Below are positions 16,320 to 39,057 of a stretch of 64,000 nt of DNA, piece by piece (positions within the stretch are counted from its first letter, which is position 1; the number at the start of each line of letters is the position of its first letter). The notes under the pieces were generated by a model that searched no databases, was not told the DNA's origin, and saw nothing but the letters and a program-made list of their open reading frames with translations. The position numbers were made by a program, and so were the translations under genes. The DNA is from Polymorphobacter multimanifer (GTDB lineage: Bacteria; Pseudomonadota; Alphaproteobacteria; Sphingomonadales; Sphingomonadaceae): contig NZ_JACIIV010000003.1 of NCBI RefSeq assembly GCF_014205635.1, positions 62,001-126,000 on the forward strand, read 5' to 3'.

Positions 16320-16695
16320 GTGGTCAGGTGATCGGGCGGCCGCTGGAGCGATCCAGAGGAAAGTCCGGGCTCCACGGAACACGGTGCCGGGTAATTCCCG
16401 GCGGGGGTGACCCCAGGGACAGTGCCACAGAGAGCAGACCGCCGATGGACCGAAAGGTCACAGGCAAGGGTGAAAGGGTGCGGCAAGAGCGCACCGCGCT
16501 TCCGGCAACGGCAAGCGGCATGGCAAACCCCACCGGGAGCAAGACCGAATAGGGGCAGCACGAGCAGCAATGCTCAGGGCAGGAACCGGCCCCGCTGCCC
16601 GGGTTGGTTGCACGAGGCGGCTGGCGACAGCCGTCCCAGATGAATGGTCGCCCCCCGAAAGGGGACAGAACCCGGCTTACAGATCACCTGACCAC
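16320..16695 (+). ncRNA. rnpB: RNase P RNA, class A
   Basis: Catalytic RNA that trims 5' leaders of pre-tRNAs. Conserved blocks are present: GAGGAAAGTCCGGGCTCC after the P4 5' strand, ACAGAGAGCAGACCGCC, GATGGACCGAAAGGTCACAG, and the closing ACAGAACCCGGCTTACAG. The ends GTGGTCAGGTGATC (16320-16333) and GATCACCTGACCAC (16682-16695) are exact reverse complements and form a 14-base-pair P1 helix, which fixes the boundaries. Length of 376 bases fits the alphaproteobacterial type. Confidence 0.95.
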
Positions 16696-27954: not shown

Positions 27955-28026
27955 TCCTCGGTAGCTCAGCGGTAGAGCATTCGACTGTTAATCGAATGGT
28001 CGCAGGTTCGAATCCTGCCCGGGGAG
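27955..28026 (+). tRNA. tRNA-Asn (GTT)
   Basis: 72-base cloverleaf. The acceptor stem TCCTCGG pairs with CCGGGGA (one T-G wobble), with discriminator G. D arm GCTCAGCGGTAGAGC, anticodon stem TTCGA/TCGAA around loop CTGTTAA (anticodon GTT), and T arm GCAGGTTCGAATCCTGC are all present. CCA is not encoded. It follows nadK by 53 bases and is followed at once by a repeat element. Confidence 0.95.
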
Positions 28027-28033
28027 CGCGCAG

Positions 28034-28147
28034 GGCGGCAAAGATTAGCGGCGCTAATCTGAGACTCGCCCAAGCGCGGCCAGCGAGGCGGCTGGCCCTT
28101 TGCCAGCCGAACTCATCTGACGTCAGCCGCGGGCTTTGCCCGCGGCC
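28034..28147 (+). repeat. Three-hairpin intergenic repeat, copy 1
   Basis: Seven bases after tRNA-Asn. Hairpin 1: AGATTAGC (28042-28049), three-base loop, GCTAATCT. Hairpin 2: CGGCTGGC (28089-28096), five-base loop, GCCAGCCG. Hairpin 3: GCCGCGGGC (28126-28134), loop TTT, GCCCGCGGC. Spacers GACTCGCC and GACGTCAGCC are shared with copy 2 at 38932-39042. Stem sequences differ between copies, yet pairing is kept. Confidence 0.75.
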
Positions 28148-28215
28148 GCAGCGCAGCACGCCCCTCCCAAGCGCAGCCCTTGCTTTCTTCCCCCATTCGT
28201 TCATTCGGCAACCAG

Positions 28216-29280
28216 ATGCCGATGCAGAACAACCTCCCCCAGGGCGCCGACCTTTTCGGCGACATCGAGCCCTCGCCGCGCGTCCGCGCCCGCGACAACA
28301 TCCCCGGCCTCATCGTCGCCGGCCTCGCCACGCTCGCGGCGGCGGCACTTGCCAGCCGCTACGGCGCGCCCTTGACCTTGCTGGCGCTGCTGATCGGCCT
28401 CAGCCTCAACTTCCTGAGCTCCGACAAGCGGCTTGCCCCCGGGCTGGGGCTGGCGGCGCGCGAGCTGCTGCGCTTTGCCATCGTGCTGATCGGTGCGCGG
28501 ATCACCTTTGCGCAGATCGGCGCGCTCGGGCCGGAGGCACTGGCGATGGTGAGCGTGACGGTGCTGGCGACGCTCGGCACCGGCGTGGTGGTGGCGCGCA
28601 GCCTCGGGCTGAGCCCTTCGCGCGGGGTGCTCGCCGGCGGGGCGGTGGCGATTTGCGGCGGCTCGGCGGCACTGGCGCTTTCGGCGACGCTCGGCGAGCG
28701 ACGGGTGAGCCAGTCCGACGTGACGCTGACGCTGGTGGGCATCTCGATCATGAGTGCGGCGGCGCTGATGCTGTATCCGGTGCTGGCGCTGACGCTGGGG
28801 CTTTCCGACGCGCAGGCCGGCTATTTCCTCGGCGGATCGGTGCATGACGTGGCGCAGGCGGTGGGGGCTGGCTATGCCTTCAGCGAGCCGGCGGGCGAAA
28901 CGGCGACGATCGTAAAGCTGGCGCGGGTGGCGCTGCTGGCGCCGGTGCTGGCGCTGGTGGGGCTGGCGTTTCCGGTGCGGGCGGAGGCGGGCGACGAACC
29001 CGATGCAAAACCGGCGAAGGCACCGCTGCTGCCATGGTTCGTGGTGGGGTTCTTCGTGGTGGCGGGGATCAATTCGCTCGGCTTCATCCCCGCCGTGGCG
29101 TCGACGGTTGCGGGCAATGCCGCAACCGCGCTGCTGGCGTTGTCGGTTGCTGCCACCGCCATCCGCACACCGGTGGCGGACATCATGAAGGCCGGGCCGC
29201 GCCCGCTGATCGTGATCGCCGCGTCGACGCTGGTGACGCTGGCGCTGGCGCTCGGCTACGCGATGCTGCGCATCGACTAG
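28216..29280 (+). CDS. YeiH-family putative sulfate exporter
   Basis: 354-residue membrane protein with about ten helices, matching the UPF0324/YeiH family (PSE): LLALLIGLSLNFLS, RFAIVLIGARITFAQI, GGAVAICGGSAALALS and the signature FLGGSVHDVAQAVGAGYAF are all family landmarks. Family members are annotated as putative sulfate or sulfite exporters, though the substrate is not proven here. The start MPMQNNLPQG is preferred to a Met 12 codons upstream that lies next to the repeat element. The stop overlaps that of the convergent cytochrome gene within CTAG. Confidence 0.82.
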   Translation: MPMQNNLPQGADLFGDIEPSPRVRARDNIPGLIVAGLATLAAAALASRYGAPLTLLALLIGLSLNFLSSDKRLAPGLGLAARELLRFAIVLIGARITFAQIGALGPEALAMVSVTVLATLGTGVVVARSLGLSPSRGVLAGGAVAICGGSAALALSATLGERRVSQSDVTLTLVGISIMSAAALMLYPVLALTLGLSDAQAGYFLGGSVHDVAQAVGAGYAFSEPAGETATIVKLARVALLAPVLALVGLAFPVRAEAGDEPDAKPAKAPLLPWFVVGFFVVAGINSLGFIPAVASTVAGNAATALLALSVAATAIRTPVADIMKAGPRPLIVIAASTLVTLALALGYAMLRID

Positions 29281-29669
29281 CGCTCGCCGCGTGTGGGCGC
29301 AGCGACGCCGCTCTCCGCCACCATCGCAGCGGTCACCTTGCCGCCGGGGCCCTTGTTGTAGCGGTTGCCGAAGTTGCCGCGCACATAGTCGATCACATCG
29401 GCGATCTCCTGGTCGGTAAGCTGGCCGCGGAACCAGGGCATGGCGCCCTTGCCGCCGGTGACGACGCTGATCGGATATTCGGGATATTGCAGGTTGGGGT
29501 TCCTGGCGAGTGCGGTGATGCGCCCGGCGCCGACCGCCCCCATGGCGTTGGCCATGTGGCACGCCTGGCAGACGTTCTGATAGACTTCGGCACCGGGATG
29601 CGGAACCGCTGGCTTAGGGGCGGCGATGGCCGGGGCGGCGATGAGCAGGCTGAGGATGAGGATTCGCAT
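29277..29669 (-). CDS. Periplasmic mono-heme cytochrome c
   Basis: 130 residues with a signal peptide (MRILILSLLIAAPAIAA) and one heme site CQACH at residues 34-38. The likely distal ligand is the Met in GGKGAMPWF near residue 76, as in class I cytochromes c. The tail (QLTDQEIADVIDYVRGNFGNRYN) is typical of the last helix of such domains. It starts two bases after the stop of the flavin oxidase gene and probably serves as its electron acceptor, as in other paired flavoprotein/cytochrome units (inference). Confidence 0.85.
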   Translation of the reverse strand: MRILILSLLIAAPAIAAPKPAVPHPGAEVYQNVCQACHMANAMGAVGAGRITALARNPNLQYPEYPISVVTGGKGAMPWFRGQLTDQEIADVIDYVRGNFGNRYNKGPGGKVTAAMVAESGVAAPTRGER

Positions 29670-29671
29670 GT

Positions 29672-31324
29672 TCAGGCCTCCAGGGCGCGCTTGTGGAGCC
29701 GGGTGACGGCATCGAGCGAGGAGAGCAGAGCCCCCTCCATCCAGCATCCGATATAGGAGGCATGCTCGCCGGCCAGCACGATGCGGTCATCGACCGCAAC
29801 CAGTGTCTGGTAATGCTCCTCGCGCGTTTCCTCGTTCCATTGGGCGCAGCAGCCGAGCGTGTAGGGCACGCGGCTCCATGCGACGGAAGCGCCGGCGGTG
29901 AACTGCTCCTTGTAGCGGCCGGGGTGGAACACCGAGCCCATTTCGAGGACGGTGCGGACGCGCTCGTCGGGCGACATGCCGGCGAACTTGTAGGAGGCGG
30001 CGCCGAAGGTATAGGCGCCGAGGATGACGCCGGGGCCATCCGAATGCATCCCGCCCGAGGGGTAGGAGATCATCGAGATCGGCCGGTCGGTGAAGCTGAT
30101 GCCGCCGTAGATGGCATTCTCCTCCTCCCAGAAGCGGGTCTTCATCTCGAGACCGACCTTGACCGAGTTGGAATAGGGCACCGCGGCGATGGCGGCGAGC
30201 ATGCCGCCCGAAGCATCGAGCTCGATCTGGCTGAGGATGCCGAGCGGGATGGTGCAGACGCAGTAATCGGCCTTGGCCTCCTTGACCGCGCCGGTGGCGG
30301 TGTCGGTGTAGGTGGCAGTGACAGCACCGCCGGCCTGCGAGATCTTGGTCACCTTGGCGTTGAAGGTGACGAGCCCTTCCACCTGCTTGCCGAAGGCCTT
30401 GCCGATCATGCCCATGCCGCCGACGGGCTGGAACATCGTCGTCTGGTGGTCGATCGACATGTGCTGCGAGATGACAGCCCAGACGCCTGAATCGAGCACA
30501 TCCTTGAACGGCAGCGGATCCGACGGGATGGGCGAGCCGTCGACGCCGCCGCCCGACGGCCGCTCGAACCCGCGGCGACGCGACGAGCGATTGCCCTTCA
30601 CATAGCGCATGTCCTTGTCGAGCAGGCCCCAGGTGCGCAGCGCCTCCTTGAGCTTGTCCTGATCTTCGGCGGAGAACTGCGAATCGAGGCCGCGATTGTC
30701 GATGGCTTTGCCGAGCAGCTCGGCGACATTGCCCTCGAAATCGGCGGAGAGATCGCGATAGGGCATCGGCTTGCCGCCAAAGGCCTTGCTGTTGTGGACG
30801 AGCGCCTGGTGGTTGAGCTGGATGAAGGGCTCGAGCGCCACGCCGAAGGCCTTGCAATAATGCAGCAGGGTGCGGTGGTGATAGGGGATGCGCCACGGGC
30901 CGGGGTTGAGATAGTTGCCGGGCGCGAATCCGACCTTCTGCGTCTCCCCGCCGAGCTCGGTGTAGGTGTCCCCGCCGTAAAGCGACCAGTTGCGGCCGCC
31001 GGGGCGATTGTTGTATTCGAGGATCTGCACCTTGTAGCCGGCCTTGCGCAGCTCGAAGGCGGCGAGCATGCCGGCGAGGCCGGCGCCGAGCACGAGCACC
31101 GAGGCGCCGGCGGGAGCGCCCGACAGCTTGGGCGGGCCGGCGAACTGCGTTTCCTTGGCGTGTCCCAGCACTTCCATCGCCTGGTACAGCGCCAGCGAGC
31201 CGCCGATCATTCCGATGGTTCGCAACACTTCGCGCCGCGTTGGCGCTCGACCGGTTCCTGCAATCAACCCACGTCCCCCATCATCGTCAAAGGCGATCCT
31301 CCCCAGGACGCGACGACATGTCAT
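29672..31324 (-). CDS. FAD-dependent flavin amine oxidase, Tat-exported
   Basis: 550-residue amine-oxidase-family flavoprotein. An Arg-Arg pair in TRREVLRTIG (about residues 29-38) with the following hydrophobic GMIGGSLALYQ suggests Tat export. The FAD dinucleotide-binding motif VLVLGAGLAG is near residue 76-85, with NNRPGGRNWSL as the second FAD loop, and the C-terminal AGEHASYIGCWMEGAL closes the FAD site. Substrate unknown. Coupled to the cytochrome c gene downstream. An in-frame Met 18 codons upstream (31378) is equally possible; neither start has a clear ribosome-binding site. Confidence 0.82.
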   Translation of the reverse strand: MTCRRVLGRIAFDDDGGRGLIAGTGRAPTRREVLRTIGMIGGSLALYQAMEVLGHAKETQFAGPPKLSGAPAGASVLVLGAGLAGMLAAFELRKAGYKVQILEYNNRPGGRNWSLYGGDTYTELGGETQKVGFAPGNYLNPGPWRIPYHHRTLLHYCKAFGVALEPFIQLNHQALVHNSKAFGGKPMPYRDLSADFEGNVAELLGKAIDNRGLDSQFSAEDQDKLKEALRTWGLLDKDMRYVKGNRSSRRRGFERPSGGGVDGSPIPSDPLPFKDVLDSGVWAVISQHMSIDHQTTMFQPVGGMGMIGKAFGKQVEGLVTFNAKVTKISQAGGAVTATYTDTATGAVKEAKADYCVCTIPLGILSQIELDASGGMLAAIAAVPYSNSVKVGLEMKTRFWEEENAIYGGISFTDRPISMISYPSGGMHSDGPGVILGAYTFGAASYKFAGMSPDERVRTVLEMGSVFHPGRYKEQFTAGASVAWSRVPYTLGCCAQWNEETREEHYQTLVAVDDRIVLAGEHASYIGCWMEGALLSSLDAVTRLHKRALEA

Positions 31325-31461
31325 GGCATCGGTGATGGAAAAGCGGGCGTCTTGCAAGCCCTTCCCGCGCGAGCGCATTGACGCGGTCGCTTTTGCGGCA
31401 TTCAGCCTGACGAAAGCAACCCGGGCGCACTGGCTTGTTCACACTCCGAAGGGATTTGCCC

Positions 31462-32961
31462 ATGGCCACCCGCACCGCTTTTCGCCTGAATTCGCTGGTG
31501 CTGCCGCTGGCGGCGGTGGCGCTGGCAGGGTGCGCCTATGACGGCGTTTCCGGACAGGCGCCGCGCTACGACCAGGGTTCGGACTACGCCTATGGCGCGG
31601 ACGGCTATGATGACCAGGGCGAGCAAGGCTATGACGGCCAGTGGAACCCGGCGTGGACGGGCGTGGAGCAGCCCGGCGACCTGTTCGGCGGCGAGGATGT
31701 GGCTTCGGTGGATGTCTTTTACGAGCCGCTGGCCCCTTATGGCCGCTGGATCGAGACGCAATGGGGCCGGGCGTTTGCGCCCGATGTCGACCGCGGCTGG
31801 CGGCCCTATACCAATGGTCGCTGGACCGAATATCGGCTATGGATCAGCGACGATCCCTGGGGCTGGGCGACCGACCATTATGGCCGCTGGGCGCATGACG
31901 ACCGCATCGGCTGGGTGTGGGTGCCCGATACGCGCTGGGGGCCGCATTGGGTGGCGTTCCGCGAGAACGAGCAATATGCCGGCTGGGCGCCGATTCCGCC
32001 GCAGGTGGCCTATGACATCGGGGTCGGCTTCGGTGGCGGATATGGCGGCGGCTTCGGGGGTGGCGGCTTCGGGGGCGGGGGCTTCGGGGGTGGCGGCTTC
32101 GGGGGTGGCGGCTTCGGCTATGACGACTTCAACAGCTGGTATGGCCCGAGCTGGGTGTGGGCGCCGGTGGGGGCCATGTTCCTGCCGGGGCTGAACCGCC
32201 GCATCCTGCCCTATGGTGGCGGGCGCAACTATTGGCAGGCGACGCGCTGGCAGCACTGGACCCCCTGGACGCGGAACCGTGGCTGGGTGGGAGCGCCGGG
32301 GCGCAACTATTGGCGTGGGGCCAGCCCGATCAGCAACCGGATTGGTGGCAGTCTGGGAGCACGTCCCGGGTTCGGCCAGCCCTATGGCGGTGGCTATCGC
32401 CGGCCGCAGCAGGGGTGGAACGGCCAGCCGGGCTTGCAGCGCCCGCGGGGTGACGGGCGGCCCGGCTTCCAGCGTCCTGTCGGTGATGGGCGGCAGGGGT
32501 GGCAGGATCGGCGCGGCCAGCGGCCGGATGGCGCTGCGCCGAACTTCGGCAACCGGCCGCCACGGGCCGAGCGCCCGGCACCGGGCAATCGCCCGGACCG
32601 GGTGGGCGGCTATGTACCGCGGCCGGCCTATGCGAATGGCGGGGTAGCGCAGCCGGCGCCGCGTGCCGACTGGCGCGGCGGGGGTCGGCAGCCGGGAATG
32701 GGTGGCGGCAATCGCGGCGCGCCCGGAGCTGGCAATGCGGTGATCGGCAATGCGATCGGCGGTAGCCTTGGTGCGCGGCCGGAGCGGCAGGCGCGGCCAC
32801 AGGTGCAGGTGCAGCCCCGGCAGATGGCGGCGCCAGCGCCCATGGCCCGGCAGGAAGCGCCGCGGCCGGCACCGCAGGCCAGGGCCGAGCGCCCTGCCCC
32901 CAGTTCCGGTCCGGGCAGCGATGGTGGTCGGCGCGACTATGGCCGGCGCGATGAAAATTAG
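31462..32961 (+). CDS. DUF6600-type Gly/Arg-rich lipoprotein
   Basis: 499 residues. A lipoprotein signal ends in the lipobox LAGC with Cys at residue 24. Residues about 80-175 hold Trp-rich repeats (WRPYTNGRWTEYRLW, DPWGWATDHYGRWAHDDRIGWVW) that match DUF6600. A tandem FGGGG block follows at about residues 196-220. The C-terminal half is rich in Arg, Pro and Gly and probably disordered. Likely an outer-membrane or cell-envelope protein; function unknown. Start supported by GAAGGGA seven bases upstream. Its stop overlaps that of the convergent DsrE gene. Confidence 0.78.
   Translation: MATRTAFRLNSLVLPLAAVALAGCAYDGVSGQAPRYDQGSDYAYGADGYDDQGEQGYDGQWNPAWTGVEQPGDLFGGEDVASVDVFYEPLAPYGRWIETQWGRAFAPDVDRGWRPYTNGRWTEYRLWISDDPWGWATDHYGRWAHDDRIGWVWVPDTRWGPHWVAFRENEQYAGWAPIPPQVAYDIGVGFGGGYGGGFGGGGFGGGGFGGGGFGGGGFGYDDFNSWYGPSWVWAPVGAMFLPGLNRRILPYGGGRNYWQATRWQHWTPWTRNRGWVGAPGRNYWRGASPISNRIGGSLGARPGFGQPYGGGYRRPQQGWNGQPGLQRPRGDGRPGFQRPVGDGRQGWQDRRGQRPDGAAPNFGNRPPRAERPAPGNRPDRVGGYVPRPAYANGGVAQPAPRADWRGGGRQPGMGGGNRGAPGAGNAVIGNAIGGSLGARPERQARPQVQVQPRQMAAPAPMARQEAPRPAPQARAERPAPSSGPGSDGGRRDYGRRDEN
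32047..32121 (+). repeat. In-frame 15-base tandem repeat coding for FGGGG
   Basis: Nearly five units of GGCGGCTTCGGGGGT-type sequence (units starting at 32047, 32062, 32077, 32092 and 32107), differing only at third positions or single bases. A 15-base unit keeps the reading frame, so copy-number slippage would lengthen or shorten the Gly-rich linker without breaking the gene. Confidence 0.85.
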
Positions 32962-33497
32962 TCCTGGATGACGGCGTAGCCCTGGAGCTGGAGGGTGGCC
33001 ATGGTGGTGATGGCCGCCACGTCCACCTTCACGTCGGGGTTGAGCTCGGCCTTGGTGTAGCCGCCCGACACCATCGACTGGCCGCACAGGCGGAAGCTGA
33101 CGCCGGCCCCGGTGAGCTGGCGGATGAGCTCGGCATCGGGGTTGGCTGCTCCCTTGAAGCGGGCGGCAAAGGCCTGCGGGGTGAGGGTCGTGGGCACGGC
33201 GGCGCCGTGGATGGTGACGACGATGTCGGCGGGCTGCAGCTTGACGCCGTGCCGGTTGAGGAGATTGACCATGCGCGCCACGCGCTCGAGGCCCTGGTGG
33301 ATGCTGCCCGGGGTGCGCGCCGGCTGCGAGACATCGAACACCACCTTGTAGCGCATTGCGGGATCGGGCTTGAGATAGGGATCGGGCACTTCCTGGTAGC
33401 GGCCGTAGTCGGGGACAAGTTTGGGCGGGATCTGCGCCAGCGCCGGGGTGGCGGCGAGCGCCAGGGCGGCGCCGAGGGGAAAGAGCAGCTTCTGCAT
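32958..33497 (-). CDS. Periplasmic DsrE-family protein
   Basis: 179 residues with a signal peptide (MQKLLFPLGAALALAATPALA). The mature protein has the DsrE/TusD-type alpha/beta fold: YKVVFDVSQPA, HQGLERVARMVNLLNRHGV, DIVVTIHGAAVP, and the cysteine segment FRLCGQSMVSGGY. The Cys aligns with the position used for sulfur transfer in DsrE/TusD proteins. It is divergent from the diheme cytochrome gene, with 92 bases between the starts, a pairing that suggests a joint role in sulfur chemistry (inference). Confidence 0.78.
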   Translation of the reverse strand: MQKLLFPLGAALALAATPALAQIPPKLVPDYGRYQEVPDPYLKPDPAMRYKVVFDVSQPARTPGSIHQGLERVARMVNLLNRHGVKLQPADIVVTIHGAAVPTTLTPQAFAARFKGAANPDAELIRQLTGAGVSFRLCGQSMVSGGYTKAELNPDVKVDVAAITTMATLQLQGYAVIQD

Positions 33498-33589
33498 CCG
33501 ATTGTCCTTTTGTCTGGCCACGGCTACGCACGCTGCATGTTCCACAGCTGCTGCAATCCGCAAAGCCGCATTTTGCCTGAGGCCTGCCG

Positions 33590-34522
33590 ATGCGGGTGAC
33601 CATGGCCTTGCTCGGCGGGTTGGGCCTTGGCGCCATGATCGGCGCGGGGGCGATGCTGGCACTGCGCCCGGCGCCTGCTGCTCCGCCCAGGCCGGAGGTC
33701 GCCGGCTTTGTGGCACCGCTGGCCACCACAGCACCCGCGGGCGCCGAGGGCGATGCGATCCGGCTGGGGGCAAGGCTGATCACCGACACGGCGCGCGAGG
33801 CGCCGGACCATGTCGGCAACGGGCTGGCGTGCCGCAACTGCCATCTCGATGCTGGCGCCAAGGCGGGGGCGGCGCCGCTGTGGGCGGCGTTCGTGAACTT
33901 TCCGGCGTTCCGCAAGAAGAACGGCGAGATCAACAGCTTCCAGAAACGTGTGCAGGACTGCTTTCTTTACAGCATGAACGGCGATCCGCCCGCACTCGGC
34001 AGCCGCGAGCTGCTGGCGATCGAAAGCTATGCCGCCTTCATGGCGCGCGGGCTGCCGAGCGGCATGTCACCGGCCGGGCGTGGCTTCCCCAGGCTCGATG
34101 CCCCTGCCCTGCCGCCCGACGATGCGCGGGGCGAGGCGGTGTATGCGGCGCAGTGCAGCGCCTGCCATGGTGCCGAGGGTGCGGGGCAGATTGTCGATGG
34201 CGTGCAGGCGTTTCCGCCGCTGTGGGGGGCGCGGAGCTACAATTGGGGAGCGGGCATGGCGACGATCGACAAGGCCGCCGCCTTCATCCACGCCAATATG
34301 CCGCAGGGCAATGAGGGCAGCCTGACCCCGCAAGCGGCGTGGGATGTGGCGCATTACATCGATGGCAAGCTGCGCCCGCAGGATCCGCGCTTCCGGACCT
34401 CGGCGGAGGCGACGCGCGCCCGGCACCATGACCAGCCCTTCTCGCGCTATGGCACGATGGTGGGCGGCGAGCGTCTGGGTGATCTGGTGTCGACCCCCCC
34501 GGCGGGGCGGGCAACCGGCTGA
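33590..34522 (+). CDS. Diheme c-type cytochrome, TsdA-like
   Basis: 310 residues with an N-terminal signal or anchor (residues 5-25). Two heme sites: CRNCH at 81-85 and CSACH at 189-193. The surroundings of the first, NGLACRNCHLDAGAKAGAAPLW, and the later segment with Cys124 in VQDCFLYSMNG follow thiosulfate dehydrogenase TsdA, where a cysteine at that place is an axial heme ligand. Thiosulfate oxidation to tetrathionate (or the reverse) is the suggested reaction. It could instead be a generic diheme cytochrome, but the matched cysteine argues for TsdA. Confidence 0.74.
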   Translation: MRVTMALLGGLGLGAMIGAGAMLALRPAPAAPPRPEVAGFVAPLATTAPAGAEGDAIRLGARLITDTAREAPDHVGNGLACRNCHLDAGAKAGAAPLWAAFVNFPAFRKKNGEINSFQKRVQDCFLYSMNGDPPALGSRELLAIESYAAFMARGLPSGMSPAGRGFPRLDAPALPPDDARGEAVYAAQCSACHGAEGAGQIVDGVQAFPPLWGARSYNWGAGMATIDKAAAFIHANMPQGNEGSLTPQAAWDVAHYIDGKLRPQDPRFRTSAEATRARHHDQPFSRYGTMVGGERLGDLVSTPPAGRATG

Positions 34523-34626
34523 GGCCTGGCCGCAAAAATGCACATATCTGTGCCACGGCTCTTGCACTTTTGTTTCCAGCCAGCACTATCGCATTGCAAC
34601 AACTTGGATGGAGGCTGCTCGCCGGC

Positions 34627-36099
34627 ATGGCAGGGATCGACGCTTTTGACGAAATGTTCGGATCGAGCGCTGCCTATAATGGTGGTGCGGGGCCGCTGTT
34701 CGGCGAGGCGACGGCGATCAACACCGCCTATCGCTGGATACGCGACTGGCTCGACAATTCGCCCGCCGATGTGATGGCGGCGCGGCGGCGGCAGGCCGAG
34801 CTGTTCTTTCGCCGCATCGGAATCACCTTTGCCGTCTATGGCGACCCGGATGCCGCCGAGCGGTTGATCCCGTTCGACATCGTACCGCGCATCTTGGCGC
34901 GGGCGGAATGGAACCGGCTTGAAAAGGGGCTGGTGCAGCGGGTGAATGCGCTCAACGCCTTTCTGGGCGATGTCTATGGCAATCGCGAGATCCTGCGCGC
35001 CGGCATCGTGCCTGAGGACCTGGTGCTGCAGAACCCCGGCTATTGCCTGCACATGGCGGGGCGCAAGCCGCCGGGCGGCATCTGGACGCATATTGCCGGC
35101 ATCGACCTGGTGCGCACCGGGCCGGACGAGTTCTTCGTGCTTGAGGACAATGCGCGGACGCCTTCGGGCGTGTCGTACATGCTCGAGAACCGCGAGGTGA
35201 TGCTGAAGCTGGTCCCTGAGCTTTTCGAACATGTGAAAGTGGCGCCGGTCGAGACCTATCCCGAGATGCTGCTGGAAACGCTGGGCAGCGTGTCCCCGCG
35301 CGGCGACGGGGCGCCGGTGATCGTGCTGCTGACGCCGGGCCGCCACAACAGTGCCTTTTACGAGCACAGCTTCCTGGCCGACAAGCTGGGCATCGAGCTG
35401 GTGGAGGGCTCAGACCTCTTCGTGCGCGACGATGTGGTGTACATGCGCACGACGCAGGGACCGGAGCGGGTGGATGTGATCTACCGCCGGATCGATGACG
35501 ATTTCATCGATCCGCTGGTGTTCAACCCGGCCTCGATGCTCGGCGTGCCGGGGCTGATGGCGGCCTATGCGCAAGGCAATGTGACGCTGGCCAATGCGGT
35601 GGGCACGGGCATTGCCGATGACAAGGCGATCTACAGCTACATGCCCGAGATCGTGAAATTCTACACCGGCGAGGAGCCGATCCTGAAGAATGTGCCGACC
35701 TGGCGATGCCGCGAGCCCGAAGCGCTGGGCTATGTGCTCGACAATCTGGCGCAGCTGGTGGTCAAGGAAGTCGATGGCTCGGGAGGCTATGGCATGCTGA
35801 TCGGGCCGCACGCGCCGGCAGCCACGCTCGCGGCCTTTGCCGCCAAGCTGAAGGCGATGCCGGAAAAGTTCATCGCCCAGCCGACGCTGGCGCTGAGCAC
35901 GTGCCCGACCGCGGTGGACAGCGGCATTGCGCCACGCCATGTCGACCTGCGTCCGTTCGTGCTTTCAGGCCGCAATGGCGTGAACATCGTGCCGGGCGGG
36001 CTGACGCGGGTGGCGATGACACAGGGATCGCTGGTGGTGAACAGCTCACAGGGTGGCGGGACCAAGGACACCTGGGTGGTGGATGACTGGGATGCGTAG
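34627..36099 (+). CDS. Circularly permuted ATP-grasp protein (DUF407/CP_ATPgrasp)
   Basis: 490 residues. Landmarks of the circularly permuted ATP-grasp family are FFRRIGITFAVYGD near the start, RVNALNAFLGDVYGNREIL, the signature LEDNARTPSGVSYMLENRE, and the ATP-binding KEVDGSGGYGMLIGP. The family is predicted to form amide or peptide bonds. The start MAGIDAFDEMFG is chosen from family pattern; GGAGG lies about 13 bases upstream, somewhat far. It is the first gene of the Anbu-associated cluster; a repeat element separates it from the alpha-E gene. Confidence 0.86.
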   Translation: MAGIDAFDEMFGSSAAYNGGAGPLFGEATAINTAYRWIRDWLDNSPADVMAARRRQAELFFRRIGITFAVYGDPDAAERLIPFDIVPRILARAEWNRLEKGLVQRVNALNAFLGDVYGNREILRAGIVPEDLVLQNPGYCLHMAGRKPPGGIWTHIAGIDLVRTGPDEFFVLEDNARTPSGVSYMLENREVMLKLVPELFEHVKVAPVETYPEMLLETLGSVSPRGDGAPVIVLLTPGRHNSAFYEHSFLADKLGIELVEGSDLFVRDDVVYMRTTQGPERVDVIYRRIDDDFIDPLVFNPASMLGVPGLMAAYAQGNVTLANAVGTGIADDKAIYSYMPEIVKFYTGEEPILKNVPTWRCREPEALGYVLDNLAQLVVKEVDGSGGYGMLIGPHAPAATLAAFAAKLKAMPEKFIAQPTLALSTCPTAVDSGIAPRHVDLRPFVLSGRNGVNIVPGGLTRVAMTQGSLVVNSSQGGGTKDTWVVDDWDA

Positions 36100-36139
36100 C
36101 GCGGCGCACACGAGATGCTTATGCGGGATGTTTGTCCTC

Positions 36140-36235
36140 GCCGCGGCAAAGCCGCGTCTTCGTCGGACAGGCTCGGCGGGTGGACAACCCGCCGCCCCGC
36201 CGGCCGGGCTTGCGCCTCTCGGCGCGCGGCCCGCG
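36140..36235 (-). repeat. Three-hairpin intergenic repeat, copy 3 (inverted, diverged)
   Basis: In the 156-base gap between the ATP-grasp and alpha-E genes. Read on the minus strand it ends with hairpin 3, CGCGGC, loop TTT, GCCGCG (36142-36156), and has hairpin 2, CGGCGGGT paired with ACCCGCCG (36174-36194, loop of five). A GC-rich hairpin with loop GAGA replaces hairpin 1. The left boundary of the element is not clear. Confidence 0.55.
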
Positions 36236-36255
36236 TGCACGGGGCGCTGCGCCTG

Positions 36256-37197
36256 ATGCTGAGCAGGACCGCCTCCAACCTCTACTGGATGGGCCGCTAC
36301 CTCGAGCGCGCCGACTTCACCGCCCGGCTGATCGAAGCGACGCAGCGGCTGGCGTCGCTGCCATCGTCCTATGGCGGCGCCGTGAATGCCTGGGAATCGG
36401 CGATTGCGGCGAGTTGGATGACGCATGCGTTTTCCGCGACCGAGCTGCCGATCACCGAGACCAATGTGAGCGAATTCCTGACGCTGGCGCCGGGCAATTC
36501 CTCGTCGATCCGCTCGTGCCTGGAGACGGCGCGCGCCAATGCCCGCAGCGTGCGCACCGCGCTGACCGAAGAGGCCTGGGAGGCGATCAATGCCGCCTGG
36601 CTGGAAATGTCCAAGCTCGGGCCGCACCTTGCCGGGCGCGATGCGCTGGGGTCGATCCTCGAGATGGTGAAGCATGCGGTGTCGGCGTTCGAGGGTGCCG
36701 CCCAGCGGACGATGCTGCGCGGCGATGCCTTCTGGTTCATCAACCTCGGCTCGAGCATCGAGCGGGCGGACAATTCGGCGCGGCTGCTCGATGTGAAATA
36801 CCATCTGCTGCTGCCGCGCGGCGAAAGCGTGGGCGGCAGCCTCGACTATTTTCAGTGGACGACGATCCTGCGCACGGTATCGGCGATGACCGCCTATCGC
36901 TGGGTGTACCGGGACAGCGTGAAGCCCTGGCTGGTGGCCGACCTGCTGATTCTCAACCGCCAGATTCCGCGCAGCCTCGCCTCCTGCTATGACGAGATCA
37001 GGCGGCATCTCGACCTGCTGGCGAGCCAGACCGGCCGGCGCGGCCCGGCGCACCGGCTGGCGGCGACGGGCCATGCGCGGCTGGCCAACACCAATATCGA
37101 CAACATCTTTGCCGATGGCCTGCACGAGTTCCTGACCGGATTCATTTATGACAACAACCGTCTGGGTGATGCCATAGCCGAACAGTATCTGTTCTGA
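36256..37197 (+). CDS. Alpha-E domain protein (DUF403)
   Basis: 313-residue all-helical protein. The opening MLSRTASNLYWMGRYLERAD is the conserved alpha-E start, and ELPITETNVSEFLTL plus RTMLRGDAFWFINLGSSIERAD are further family blocks. Alpha-E proteins occur almost only with circularly permuted ATP-grasp and transglutaminase-like genes and are thought to be part of the same peptide-modifying system. The in-frame extension upstream runs through the repeat element and is not credible. The stop overlaps the next start (TGATG). Confidence 0.88.
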   Translation: MLSRTASNLYWMGRYLERADFTARLIEATQRLASLPSSYGGAVNAWESAIAASWMTHAFSATELPITETNVSEFLTLAPGNSSSIRSCLETARANARSVRTALTEEAWEAINAAWLEMSKLGPHLAGRDALGSILEMVKHAVSAFEGAAQRTMLRGDAFWFINLGSSIERADNSARLLDVKYHLLLPRGESVGGSLDYFQWTTILRTVSAMTAYRWVYRDSVKPWLVADLLILNRQIPRSLASCYDEIRRHLDLLASQTGRRGPAHRLAATGHARLANTNIDNIFADGLHEFLTGFIYDNNRLGDAIAEQYLF

Positions 37198-38048
37198 TGC
37201 GCATCCGCGTCGCCTATACCACCATCTATGACTATGCCACGCTGGCGAGCGACGTGGTGCAGCTGCTGCGGATCGAGCCGCATGCGACGGCGGGGCAGCA
37301 TGTTCTCCACTGGCGGCTCGACACCGACACCGACGGCCATCTGCGGCGGACGAGCGATGTGTATGGCAATGTGGCGCACATGTTTTACGCCGATGCGCCG
37401 CTGCGGCGGCTGACGCTGCATGTATCGGGCGAGGTGGATACCGACGAGACGCATGGCCTGGTGGCGGGGGCGTCCGAGCCGCTGCCGCCGGCGGTGTTCC
37501 TGCGGCCGACGCCGCTGAGCATGCCCGATGCGGCGATCCGGGCCTTTGCCGCCGACTGCCGTGCGGAGACGGCGCTGGACACGCTGCACGGCATCAACAC
37601 CGCGCTCTTCGAGATGATGAGCTTCGATGCCGATGTGACGCACGCCTCCACCGGCGCCACCCATGCCTTTGCGCTGAAGGCGGGCGTTTGCCAGGATTAC
37701 AGCCATATCTTCATCGCGGCGGCGCGGAGCCTGGGCATTCCGGCGCGCTATGTGTCGGGGCATCTGGTGCGCGCCGACGGGCTGATCACCCAGCCCGCGG
37801 CGCATGCCTGGGCGGAGGCGCATATCGAGGATTTCGGCTGGGTGGGGTTCGATCCGACCAACGGCATTTCCACCACCGAGGCGCATCTGAGGGTGTCGGT
37901 GGGGCTGGACTATCTGGAAGCGGCGCCGGTGCGCGGCGCGCGGCGCGGTGGCGGGGCGGAGACGCTCAATGTGACGGTGACAACCCACAGCCCCGACCAG
38001 GAGGTGCCGAAGCGGGTGGACGCCGGGCAATCGCAGATGCAATCATGA
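37197..38048 (+). CDS. Transglutaminase-like peptidase
   Basis: 283-residue cysteine peptidase of the bacterial transglutaminase superfamily. The N-terminal beta domain (RVAYTTIYDYATLASDVVQLLRI) is the usual BTLCP-type extension. The catalytic triad is Cys165 (KAGVCQDYSH), His203 (AAHAWAEAHI) and Asp219 (VGFDPTNG). In this context it is predicted to hydrolyse or transfer amide bonds made by the ATP-grasp partner. It shares one base with the alpha-E stop. Confidence 0.9.
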   Translation: MRIRVAYTTIYDYATLASDVVQLLRIEPHATAGQHVLHWRLDTDTDGHLRRTSDVYGNVAHMFYADAPLRRLTLHVSGEVDTDETHGLVAGASEPLPPAVFLRPTPLSMPDAAIRAFAADCRAETALDTLHGINTALFEMMSFDADVTHASTGATHAFALKAGVCQDYSHIFIAAARSLGIPARYVSGHLVRADGLITQPAAHAWAEAHIEDFGWVGFDPTNGISTTEAHLRVSVGLDYLEAAPVRGARRGGGAETLNVTVTTHSPDQEVPKRVDAGQSQMQS

Positions 38049-38145
38049 ACGGCACGACACGGCCGCCCTTGTGAAGCAGGGACCGGAGGTACCAGCTGGC
38101 GACCAGGAATCGCTCTGGTCGAACATCTGGGGGGAGAAGGCAGGC

Positions 38146-38925
38146 ATGACCTATTGCGTGGGGATTCTGGTTCGTGAGGGACTGGTGATGATGGCCGACA
38201 CCCGCACCAATGCGGGCGTGGACAATATCTCCAGCTACCGGAAGCTCAGGGTGATGGACACCAGCCCCAACCGGGTGATCGCGGTGTGTTCGGCGGGGTC
38301 GCTTTCGGTGACGCAATCGGCGCTGAGCCGGGTGCAGGAAGGGATCATGATGCCCGACCGCGCCGGCACCGAGGGGCAGGAGCTGGAGACGCTCGACAAC
38401 GCACCCTCGGTATTCCGCGCGGCGCAGATCATGGGACAGGCGCTGCACGACGCCAAGCGGGGCATCGACAAGGTGGTGGAGGGCAATCGGGTTTCGACCG
38501 GCTCGACGCTGCTGCTCGCCGGGTCGATCGACGGGCGACGGCCGCGGCTTTTCCTGATCTATGGCGAGGGCAATTTCATCGAATGCCAGTCGGACACGCC
38601 GTTCCTGCAGATCGGCGAGCACAAATATGGCAAGCCGATGCTCGACCGCATGATCACCTATGAAACGCCGCTCGCCGAGGCGGTGAAGATCGGGCTCATT
38701 TCGTTCAACGCGACGATGCGCTCCAATCTGGCGGTGGGGCTGCCGATCGACCTGATCACGGTGCGCTCGGGTGTGTCGCAGATCGAGGTGCTGCACCGGA
38801 TCGACACCGATGATGCCTATTACAGCGAAATGAACGACCGCTGGTCGAATGCGCTGCGCGCTGCGGCGGCGGCGATTCCGTTGCCGGGCTATGCGAGCGC
38901 GCCGGACGAGATGCCGCCGGATTAA
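38146..38925 (+). CDS. Anbu proteasome-like peptidase
   Basis: 259-residue Ntn-hydrolase related to HslV and proteasome beta subunits, of the Anbu type. The sequence begins MTYCVGILV, so removal of Met would expose the catalytic Thr. The Lys in SSYRKLRVMD matches the active-site lysine region, and AVCSAGSLSVTQ follows the proteasome beta-strand pattern. The start at 38146 has GGGGAGAAGG five bases upstream and puts Thr at position 2; a GTG 25 codons upstream would bury it. It closes the ATP-grasp/alpha-E/transglutaminase cluster. Confidence 0.88.
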   Translation: MTYCVGILVREGLVMMADTRTNAGVDNISSYRKLRVMDTSPNRVIAVCSAGSLSVTQSALSRVQEGIMMPDRAGTEGQELETLDNAPSVFRAAQIMGQALHDAKRGIDKVVEGNRVSTGSTLLLAGSIDGRRPRLFLIYGEGNFIECQSDTPFLQIGEHKYGKPMLDRMITYETPLAEAVKIGLISFNATMRSNLAVGLPIDLITVRSGVSQIEVLHRIDTDDAYYSEMNDRWSNALRAAAAAIPLPGYASAPDEMPPD

Positions 38926-38931
38926 AGCCAA

Positions 38932-39042
38932 GGCGGCCCAAGATAGCGCAGCTATCGTGGGACTCGCCGAAGGCCCGGCCGGGCTGGCGCTGAACAAAGT
39001 TCAGCGAACAGCTTCGACGTCAGCCGCGGCTTTGCCGCGGCC
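38932..39042 (+). repeat. Three-hairpin intergenic repeat, copy 2
   Basis: Between the converging Anbu and MFS genes. Hairpin 1: GATAGC/GCTATC (38942-38956, three-base loop, extended by outer pairs with one mismatch). Hairpin 2: CGCTGAAC/GTTCAGCG (38988-39006, loop AAA). Hairpin 3: GCCGCGGC/GCCGCGGC (39023-39041, loop TTT). The whole element is bracketed by AGCCAAGG (38926-38933) and its complement CCTTGGCT (39052-39059), which could pair at the base. It may also end both transcripts. Confidence 0.75.
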
Positions 39043-39057
39043 CCTTCTTTACCTTGG

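Follow-up and report, generated by a model that had tools for sequence, protein, structure and literature searches.

The window analysed here, a 64,000-nucleotide stretch of the Polymorphobacter multimanifer genome (RefSeq assembly GCF_014205635.1, contig NZ_JACIIV010000003.1, positions 62,001 to 126,000), carries three copies of a structured element of about 115 nucleotides (nt) that folds as three hairpins, P1-P2-P3. Our analysis identifies this element as a gene-end module, newly recognised here, and as a dispersed family within one bacterial family, placed in the Sphingomonadales by the named matches. Its copies mostly lie in sense orientation against the 3′ ends of genes, and their stems differ from copy to copy through compensatory changes.

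Three copies of the element in the window

A first-pass annotation, made from the letters of the window, had proposed that three intergenic sites share one arrangement of hairpins and spacers. All three are present, both in the sequence itself and as matches to a covariance model (R1) that we built from 17 copies of the window's own genome, including copies 1 and 2 and excluding copy 3. The E-values given below come from an R1 search of that whole genome (G000; 3.92 Mb in 72 contigs), in which copies 1 and 2 match by construction and copy 3 is an independent match. The features are as follows.

27955..28027, + strand: tRNA-Asn (gtt) gene (ARAGORN, Rfam RF00005); the copy 1 model match begins 4 nt past its end
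28032..28152, + strand: element copy 1, whole model match (R1, E=7.5e-20; among the 17 R1 training sequences)
28033..28071, + strand: P1 of copy 1, outer stem GGGCG/CGCCC around hairpin 1 (sequence, folds, pair counts)
28042-28049 with 28053-28060, + strand: hairpin 1 of copy 1, loop GGC, inside P1
28063-28067, + strand: GACTC motif of copy 1, on the 3′ side of P1
28081..28119, + strand: P2 of copy 1, outer stem CAGCGAG with G|AA internal loop (sequence, folds)
28089-28096 with 28102-28109, + strand: hairpin 2 of copy 1, CGGCTGGC/GCCAGCCG (sequence, folds)
28126..28146, + strand: P3 of copy 1, GCCGCGGGC-TTT-GCCCGCGGC, a terminator-like hairpin (sequence)
38930..39048, + strand: element copy 2 (R1, E=1.0e-16; in the R1 training set)
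38988..39006, + strand: hairpin 2 of copy 2, CGCTGAAC-AAA-GTTCAGCG (sequence)
39023..39041, + strand: P3 of copy 2, GCCGCGGC-TTT-GCCGCGGC, then CCCTTCTTT (sequence)
36133..36248, - strand: element copy 3, antisense, flanked by the CP_ATPgrasp and Alpha-E genes (R1, E=2.2e-10; outside the training set)
36174..36194, - strand: hairpin 2 of copy 3, 5′ arm CGGCGGGT on its own strand (sequence)
36142..36156, - strand: P3 of copy 3, CGCGGC-TTT-GCCGCG (sequence)
16324-16695: RNase P RNA gene (RF00010, 296.9 bits)

The hairpins and spacers agree with the description in the annotation, with one correction in copy 3, where CGGCGGGT is the 5′ arm of hairpin 2 and ACCCGCCG is the 3′ arm when the copy is read on its own strand. 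Two outer helices extend that description: one encloses hairpin 1 within P1 and leaves two 3′-side bases unpaired (the GACTC motif), and the other, P2a, forms the base beneath hairpin 2 and carries a bulged T as well as a G|AA internal loop. In copy 1 the partner strand of CAGCGAG contains this bulged T and one C-A mismatch. Hairpin 1 has six clean apex pairs in copy 2 and is degenerate in copy 3. The gene ahead of copy 2 has a Pfam Proteasome match; its stop codon occupies 38923-38925, and copy 2 begins 4 nt past it and faces a convergent MFS-type gene.

Architecture, covariation and distribution of the family

Across the family, P1 opens with an outer stem of five pairs, most typically GCGCG/CGCGC, followed by two pairs with the two unpaired 3′-side bases, and it surrounds a hairpin 1 whose apex is often ATAGC-GNN-GCTAT in folds and alignment. 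A short, AAGC-like linker leads to P2. Its outer stem has a bulged base, a T in 137 of the 158 copies parsed, and its internal loop is G|AA in 90 of these, the commonest form among many. The linker from P2 to P3 is close to ACGTCA, and P3 itself is a GC hairpin with the apex GGC-TTT-GCC and a T/C-rich tail; of the 151 parsed copies, 130 have TTT as the apex loop, where the parse admitted just five 3-nt loops and left loop length no freedom. The copies come from three alignments (A3, A4 and A5) that take in every model match at their stated E-values, in which 171 matches gave 169 copies after duplicate removal, two doubtful ones being retained (L107 and the second match in L106); 158 were parsed for P2 and 151 for P3.

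Most of 30 own-genome loci that were folded singly show the common plan, and L027, L028 and L030 do not. Hairpin 1 is absent from L072 and much enlarged in some copies from genomes G003 and G063. Among the copies listed, L101 and L106 (own genome), L076 (G167) and L082 (G106) have, in place of hairpin 2, a long hairpin accompanied by runs of A and T; such replacement of a whole hairpin fits a structural constraint. As a separate observation, the long GC hairpin that occupies the P2 position in these four looks like a bidirectional terminator. The similarities of the P1, P2 and P3 segments correlate weakly in 41 own copies (r 0.35, 0.10 and 0.27), which is compatible with some exchange of parts and is not decisive.

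The annotation had also pointed to covarying stems, and compensatory changes do occur far in excess of both controls. In the 17 own copies, 90.9% of cells are paired and 89 cells are changed on both sides, against a mean of 28.3 in shuffled alignments (0 of 500 shuffles reach 89) and at most 23 with slid pairings. The 95 matches taken from other genomes, of which 94 are distinct, have 630 cells changed on both sides, against 158.1 when shuffled and at most 144 when slid, and 94.1% of cells are paired, against 30-42% with slid partners, in an alignment fitted to R1, which favours pairing. Pair counts from the first alignment (A2), that of the 17 own copies, are biased towards clean copies by its exclusions, namely the odd or partial copies L006, L008, L015, L017, L019, L020, L023, L024, L025 and L029, together with L027, L028 and L030, which were judged not to be copies.

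Searching beyond the window with the model, as the annotation had suggested, yielded many further copies. Copy 1 used as a BLAST query gave 44 matches in its own genome at E<=10, 22 of them at E<=1e-5, and R1 copies at E<=1e-4 number at least 42 in G000, at least 38 in G038, at least 39 in G101 and at least 35 in G003, these being lower bounds from a family screen that scored 18 candidates per genome and a follow-up search that scored 150. The follow-up search detected no R1 copies in five genomes that were empty in the first screen. Within the taxonomic family of the window, R1 (E<=0.01, with stricter filters) matched 38 of the 199 genomes sampled and 23 of the 96 genera, and a class-wide sample gave two matching genomes in 289 (E<=0.001), both from the same family, a result that serves as a negative control for R1. 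A core pattern of 27 letters (25 fixed bases) was located in six named places: Polymorphobacter glacialis, four sites in three Sphingomonadales metagenome-assembled genomes, and alphaproteobacterium AAP81b. A strict spacer pattern occurred 5 times in the own genome and its reversed control 4 times, the word alone being uninformative. Weak R1 matches of 13-20 bits (E 0.03-0.9) in L125, L128/L149 and L123/L151 were treated as noise; the one in L125 (1400-1511) lies just behind a gene end and by eye resembles another reading frame.

The annotation recognised no named repeat family here, which agrees with Rfam 15, where no match overlaps the element, whether over the whole window at the gathering score or over eight copy-bearing loci at E<=1. 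We found no description of it in the literature searched (titles and abstract openings, with few subscription journals covered), and the available part of PMC4741004 does not mention it.

Position at gene ends and turnover among relatives

The three contexts that the annotation named for the window copies had looked unrelated; the usual rule of the family is instead the 3′ end of a gene, in sense, with copy 3 as the exception among the window copies. We could class 156 of the 169 copies (10 of the other 13 were incomplete and three overlapped a called gene), and 131 of these run in the same direction as the gene that lies 5′ of them, the contexts being convergent for 74, tandem sense for 57, divergent for 13 and tandem antisense for 12. 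The fit to the gene end is close: 93 of 136 sense copies start between -4 and +6 nt of the stop codon, many inside it or immediately past it, and the others start earlier (9), at 7-20 nt (10), at 21-50 nt (8) or at more than 50 nt (16). As a yardstick, we took 578 element-free gene ends, 96 of which have a perfect hairpin of 8 base pairs (bp) within 120 nt; 15 of these 96 ordinary hairpins start 0-6 nt past the stop, a comparison that is rough and not like-for-like, as it sets the first position of the model against the start of a hairpin. Where two copies are neighbours at 400 bp or less (14 cases), the arrangement is convergent in 12, tandem in 2 and divergent in none, as if each converging gene owned one copy.

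The same position is seen behind structural RNA genes. Eleven of the 169 copies, window copy 1 included, follow a same-strand tRNA at a distance of 4-10 nt (Asn, Lys, Arg, Ala, three Val and four Gly). In 30 chosen carrier genomes, the 140 nt that follow the RNase P RNA gene were read by eye, and the element lies directly behind 7 of the 30 genes, within a few nt (L253, L256, L258, L259, L262, L266 and L268), with L251 a doubtful, divergent-looking case. By the same reading, no element occurs in the 140 nt that follow the RNase P RNA gene of the own genome (L255). On the far side of the element, the 10 nt after P3 are on average rich in T and poor in A (699 T and 111 A among 1510 nt, from 151 copies).

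Copies are often most similar to others of the same genome. Among genomes with at least five sampled copies, 90 of 150 copies had their closest match within the genome they came from, where 18.9 were expected; the effect is strongest in G038 (19/19), G163 (8/10) and G000 (34/44) and weak in G134 (1/12), G063 (1/8) and G020 (2/7). Individual sites are patchily occupied. Behind the gene of copy 2, the element is found in one of the 22 genomes of the genus that have that gene. At the copy 3 locus, it is found in five of the 20 loci read (L163 left out), between the same two genes, in G000 and, as R1 matches, in G207, G211, G216 and G217; the other 15 loci, two of them with less than 80 nt upstream, gave no R1 match. 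G206 holds what appears by eye to be a remnant. This presence or absence at the same site among relatives is a feature of miniature inverted-repeat transposable elements (MITEs), and patchiness would also follow from the loss of an older state. The empty sites of relatives have diverged too far to mark where the element joins its surroundings. The same-locus copies of relatives are the 1st, 2nd, 4th and 7th closest to copy 3 among 172 compared, and these copies (L158, L149, L162 and L146) are in sense, with copy 3 in the opposite orientation. The simplest reading is that the ~115-bp element was inverted in place in the lineage of G000; alternatively, the same subtype may have inserted there independently.

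Proposed role and rival readings

The element resembles both dispersed palindromic repeats and intrinsic terminators; the tested features of the repetitive extragenic palindrome (REP) classes are absent from it, and terminator features are found only in part. With intrinsic (Rho-independent) terminators it shares a GC-rich hairpin with, on average, a T-rich stretch after it, in sense and behind stop codons, and hairpin clusters 3′ of stop codons are described among such terminators in the available part of PMC8355165. It differs from them in having a conserved two-helix module before the hairpin, in forming a sequence family common to its loci, and in a T tract that is often weak or absent. 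Uptake-signal terminators are made of one fixed word in inverted pairs. Such terminators, related to DNA uptake signals (PMC1852404, as far as its available part goes), are like the element in that a dispersed repeat doubles as a terminator, whereas the stem sequences of the element vary freely.

We consider it fairly probable, from the orientation, position, tail, spread, patchiness and covariation described above, that this is a dispersed 3′-end, terminator-like module of one bacterial family that ends transcripts. The element would form the final ~115 nt of transcripts, be they mRNAs or the precursors of tRNAs and RNase P RNA; P1 and P2 would fold right behind the stop codon or the mature RNA end, and P3 with its pyrimidine- or T-rich tail would form an intrinsic-terminator-like hairpin. 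P1 and P2 probably insulate the 3′ end of the gene, either as a barrier to exonucleases or as a pause-promoting structure ahead of the terminator. Copies would multiply inside genomes, and the same gene end would in consequence have the module in some relatives and lack it in others.

A number of results count against this proposal. P3 is not followed by a T tract in copies 1 and 3, and TTT occurs within 10 nt after P3 in only 68 of 151 copies overall and, for the own genome, in 17 of the 36 whose P3 could be parsed. A canonical terminator is thus frequent among the copies, yet many lack one. Twenty-five of the 156 classed copies are not sense to their 5′-side gene, and the gene calls on which this classing depends came from a codon-score caller trained on 40 open reading frames of the window, without tRNA genes. 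For other genomes the sample was drawn from the highest-scoring matches and not at random, and copies that are related do not count as independent. What the data show directly is the structure with its covariation, the orientation and placement at gene ends, the T-rich tail as an average, the patchy occupancy and the frequent same-genome closest copy; that the element is transcribed, ends transcripts and stabilises them, and how it is copied, we infer from sequence. Finally, wobble pairs are rare: the element has 107 G-U and 84 A-C among 5505 cells, against 236 G-U and 8 A-C among 2807 cells in an RNase P RNA control (30 carrier genomes, alignment-consensus pairing).

This last point bears on what the covariation means. 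Counted as distinct cases, helices with exactly one non-Watson-Crick pair comprise 47 with G-T, 19 with A-C and 55 with other pairs in the element, and 42, 2 and 9, respectively, in RNase P; part of the A-C count of the element is likely to be alignment noise. With distinct helices counted, G-T exceeds A-C in the element at p=0.0008, a genuine lean to the sense strand, yet wobble is far scarcer than in an established RNA such as that of RNase P, and wobble this rare makes RNA-level selection alone a poor fit. Of the annotation's step from covariation to selection on structure, the compensatory stems stand, but they make a weaker argument for an RNA-level structural constraint than first appears, G-U being rare and only mildly commoner than A-C. 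We take this to mean that pairing is strictly demanded, or that palindromes are renewed at the DNA level, or both.

A more far-reaching version, which we offer as a tentative possibility, is that the element is a self-spreading terminator, moved without a Y1 transposase of the REP-associated tyrosine transposase (RAYT) type or by some other enzyme. It would be placed exactly at gene ends, after stop codons, tRNAs and RNase P RNA alike, and take over as the 3′ end, its hairpins being renewed as whole palindromes in DNA and not by the wobble steps typical of RNA.

It seems rather unlikely that the copies are a REP- or MITE-like selfish element, recognised in the form of single-stranded DNA hairpins, which is merely tolerated at 3′ ends and whose terminator-like features are incidental. 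They are dispersed, patchy and clustered within genomes, as such an element should be, their imperfect stems conserve unpaired bases (G|AA in 90/158, bulged T in 137/158), wobble pairs are as few as expected of DNA hairpins, and the Y1 transposase domain (Y1_Tnp, PF01797) was matched in 5 of 19 carriers (G020, G091, G101, G122 and G155) against 1 of 11 non-carriers (G011) tested. Tolerance alone, however, predicts neither the abutment at -4 to +6 nt nor the sense bias. Moreover, Y1_Tnp has 0 matches in the own genome and was not found in seven of the nine genomes with at least 20 copies (G000, G003, G038, G063, G072, G163 and G167; G020 and G101 have one match each), on which ground we rejected mobilisation by RAYT/Y1. 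An origin from plasmids or phages was likewise set aside, copy 1, the only query, being unmatched in plasmid and phage records.

REPs, like the element, have a preference for 3′ ends. The bacteria N. aromaticivorans, S. chlorophenolicum and S. wittichii belong to the sphingomonads. These three are named as hosts of the CGTC-tagged REPs, which the available part of PMC3733652 describes as dispersed palindromic repeats, mostly of alphaproteobacteria, with variable stems and no dedicated transposase. Each is a single hairpin with a stem of 8-9 bp, AT in the first and second position after a CGTC, TGTC or CCTC tag, a loop of 4-5 and an unpaired CCA tail (PMC3733652, same part). The element is like them in being a dispersed palindrome with variable stems, and unlike them in its three hairpins, its length of ~115 nt, its TTT apex in P3 and its tie to gene ends. 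Neither the stem nor the loop and tail of this class was found in the aligned copies, where P3 follows a linker near GACGTCA, starts with G/C pairs, has the TTT apex counted above (130/151, 3-nt loops only parsed) and ends in a T/C-rich tail without CCA. The GTAG REPs with RAYT (Y1) transposases (available part of PMC3733652) are again dispersed imperfect palindromes; the element differs from them in that no Y1_Tnp was found in the own genome and no GTAG tag was seen in the aligned copies. Separately, reading by eye shows short palindromes of one hairpin each, similar to CGTC/TGTC-type REPs, inside copy L059 (1501-1614, - strand) and, in a relative, downstream of the gene in L141; they represent a different repeat class in the same genomes.

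Still less probable, to our mind, is that the structure matters as DNA, as an intergenic cruciform or protein site (a supercoiling sink or a buffer between replication and transcription) whose palindromes are kept perfect by template switching and not by RNA selection. The scarcity of wobble intermediates, the 305 perfect helices among 555 instances, the 74 of 156 classed copies between converging genes and the inversion of copy 3 with respect to its same-locus relatives would all suit this reading. The element is nevertheless strand-specific, in its sense bias and its T-rich, A-poor 3′ tail as well as in the mild excess of G-T over A-C (47 to 19), and a cruciform would not discriminate strands. 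Least credible of all is a small regulatory RNA derived from 3′ untranslated regions, or a protein-binding sponge, with GACTC and GACGTCA as accessible conserved single strands, for although unpaired motifs are conserved amid variable stems, no Rfam match covers the element in the stretches searched and the exact abutment to gene ends would go unexplained.

If the terminator-like gene-end module that we prefer is correct, a propagating structured module rewrites the 3′ ends of genes in a large bacterial family, and its patchy distribution supplies ready-made comparisons between matched genes that carry it and others that lack it. The case would also be a caution that covariation by itself is no proof of RNA function. 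Both the spread of small palindromic repeats without a known transposase and the origin of repeat covariation, in RNA selection or in DNA palindrome renewal, would then become testable.

A minor observation concerns locus L036, where positions 2709-2867 gave a sub-threshold match to RF02600 (Brucella sRNA CI27), at 31.9 bits against a cut-off of 59.8.

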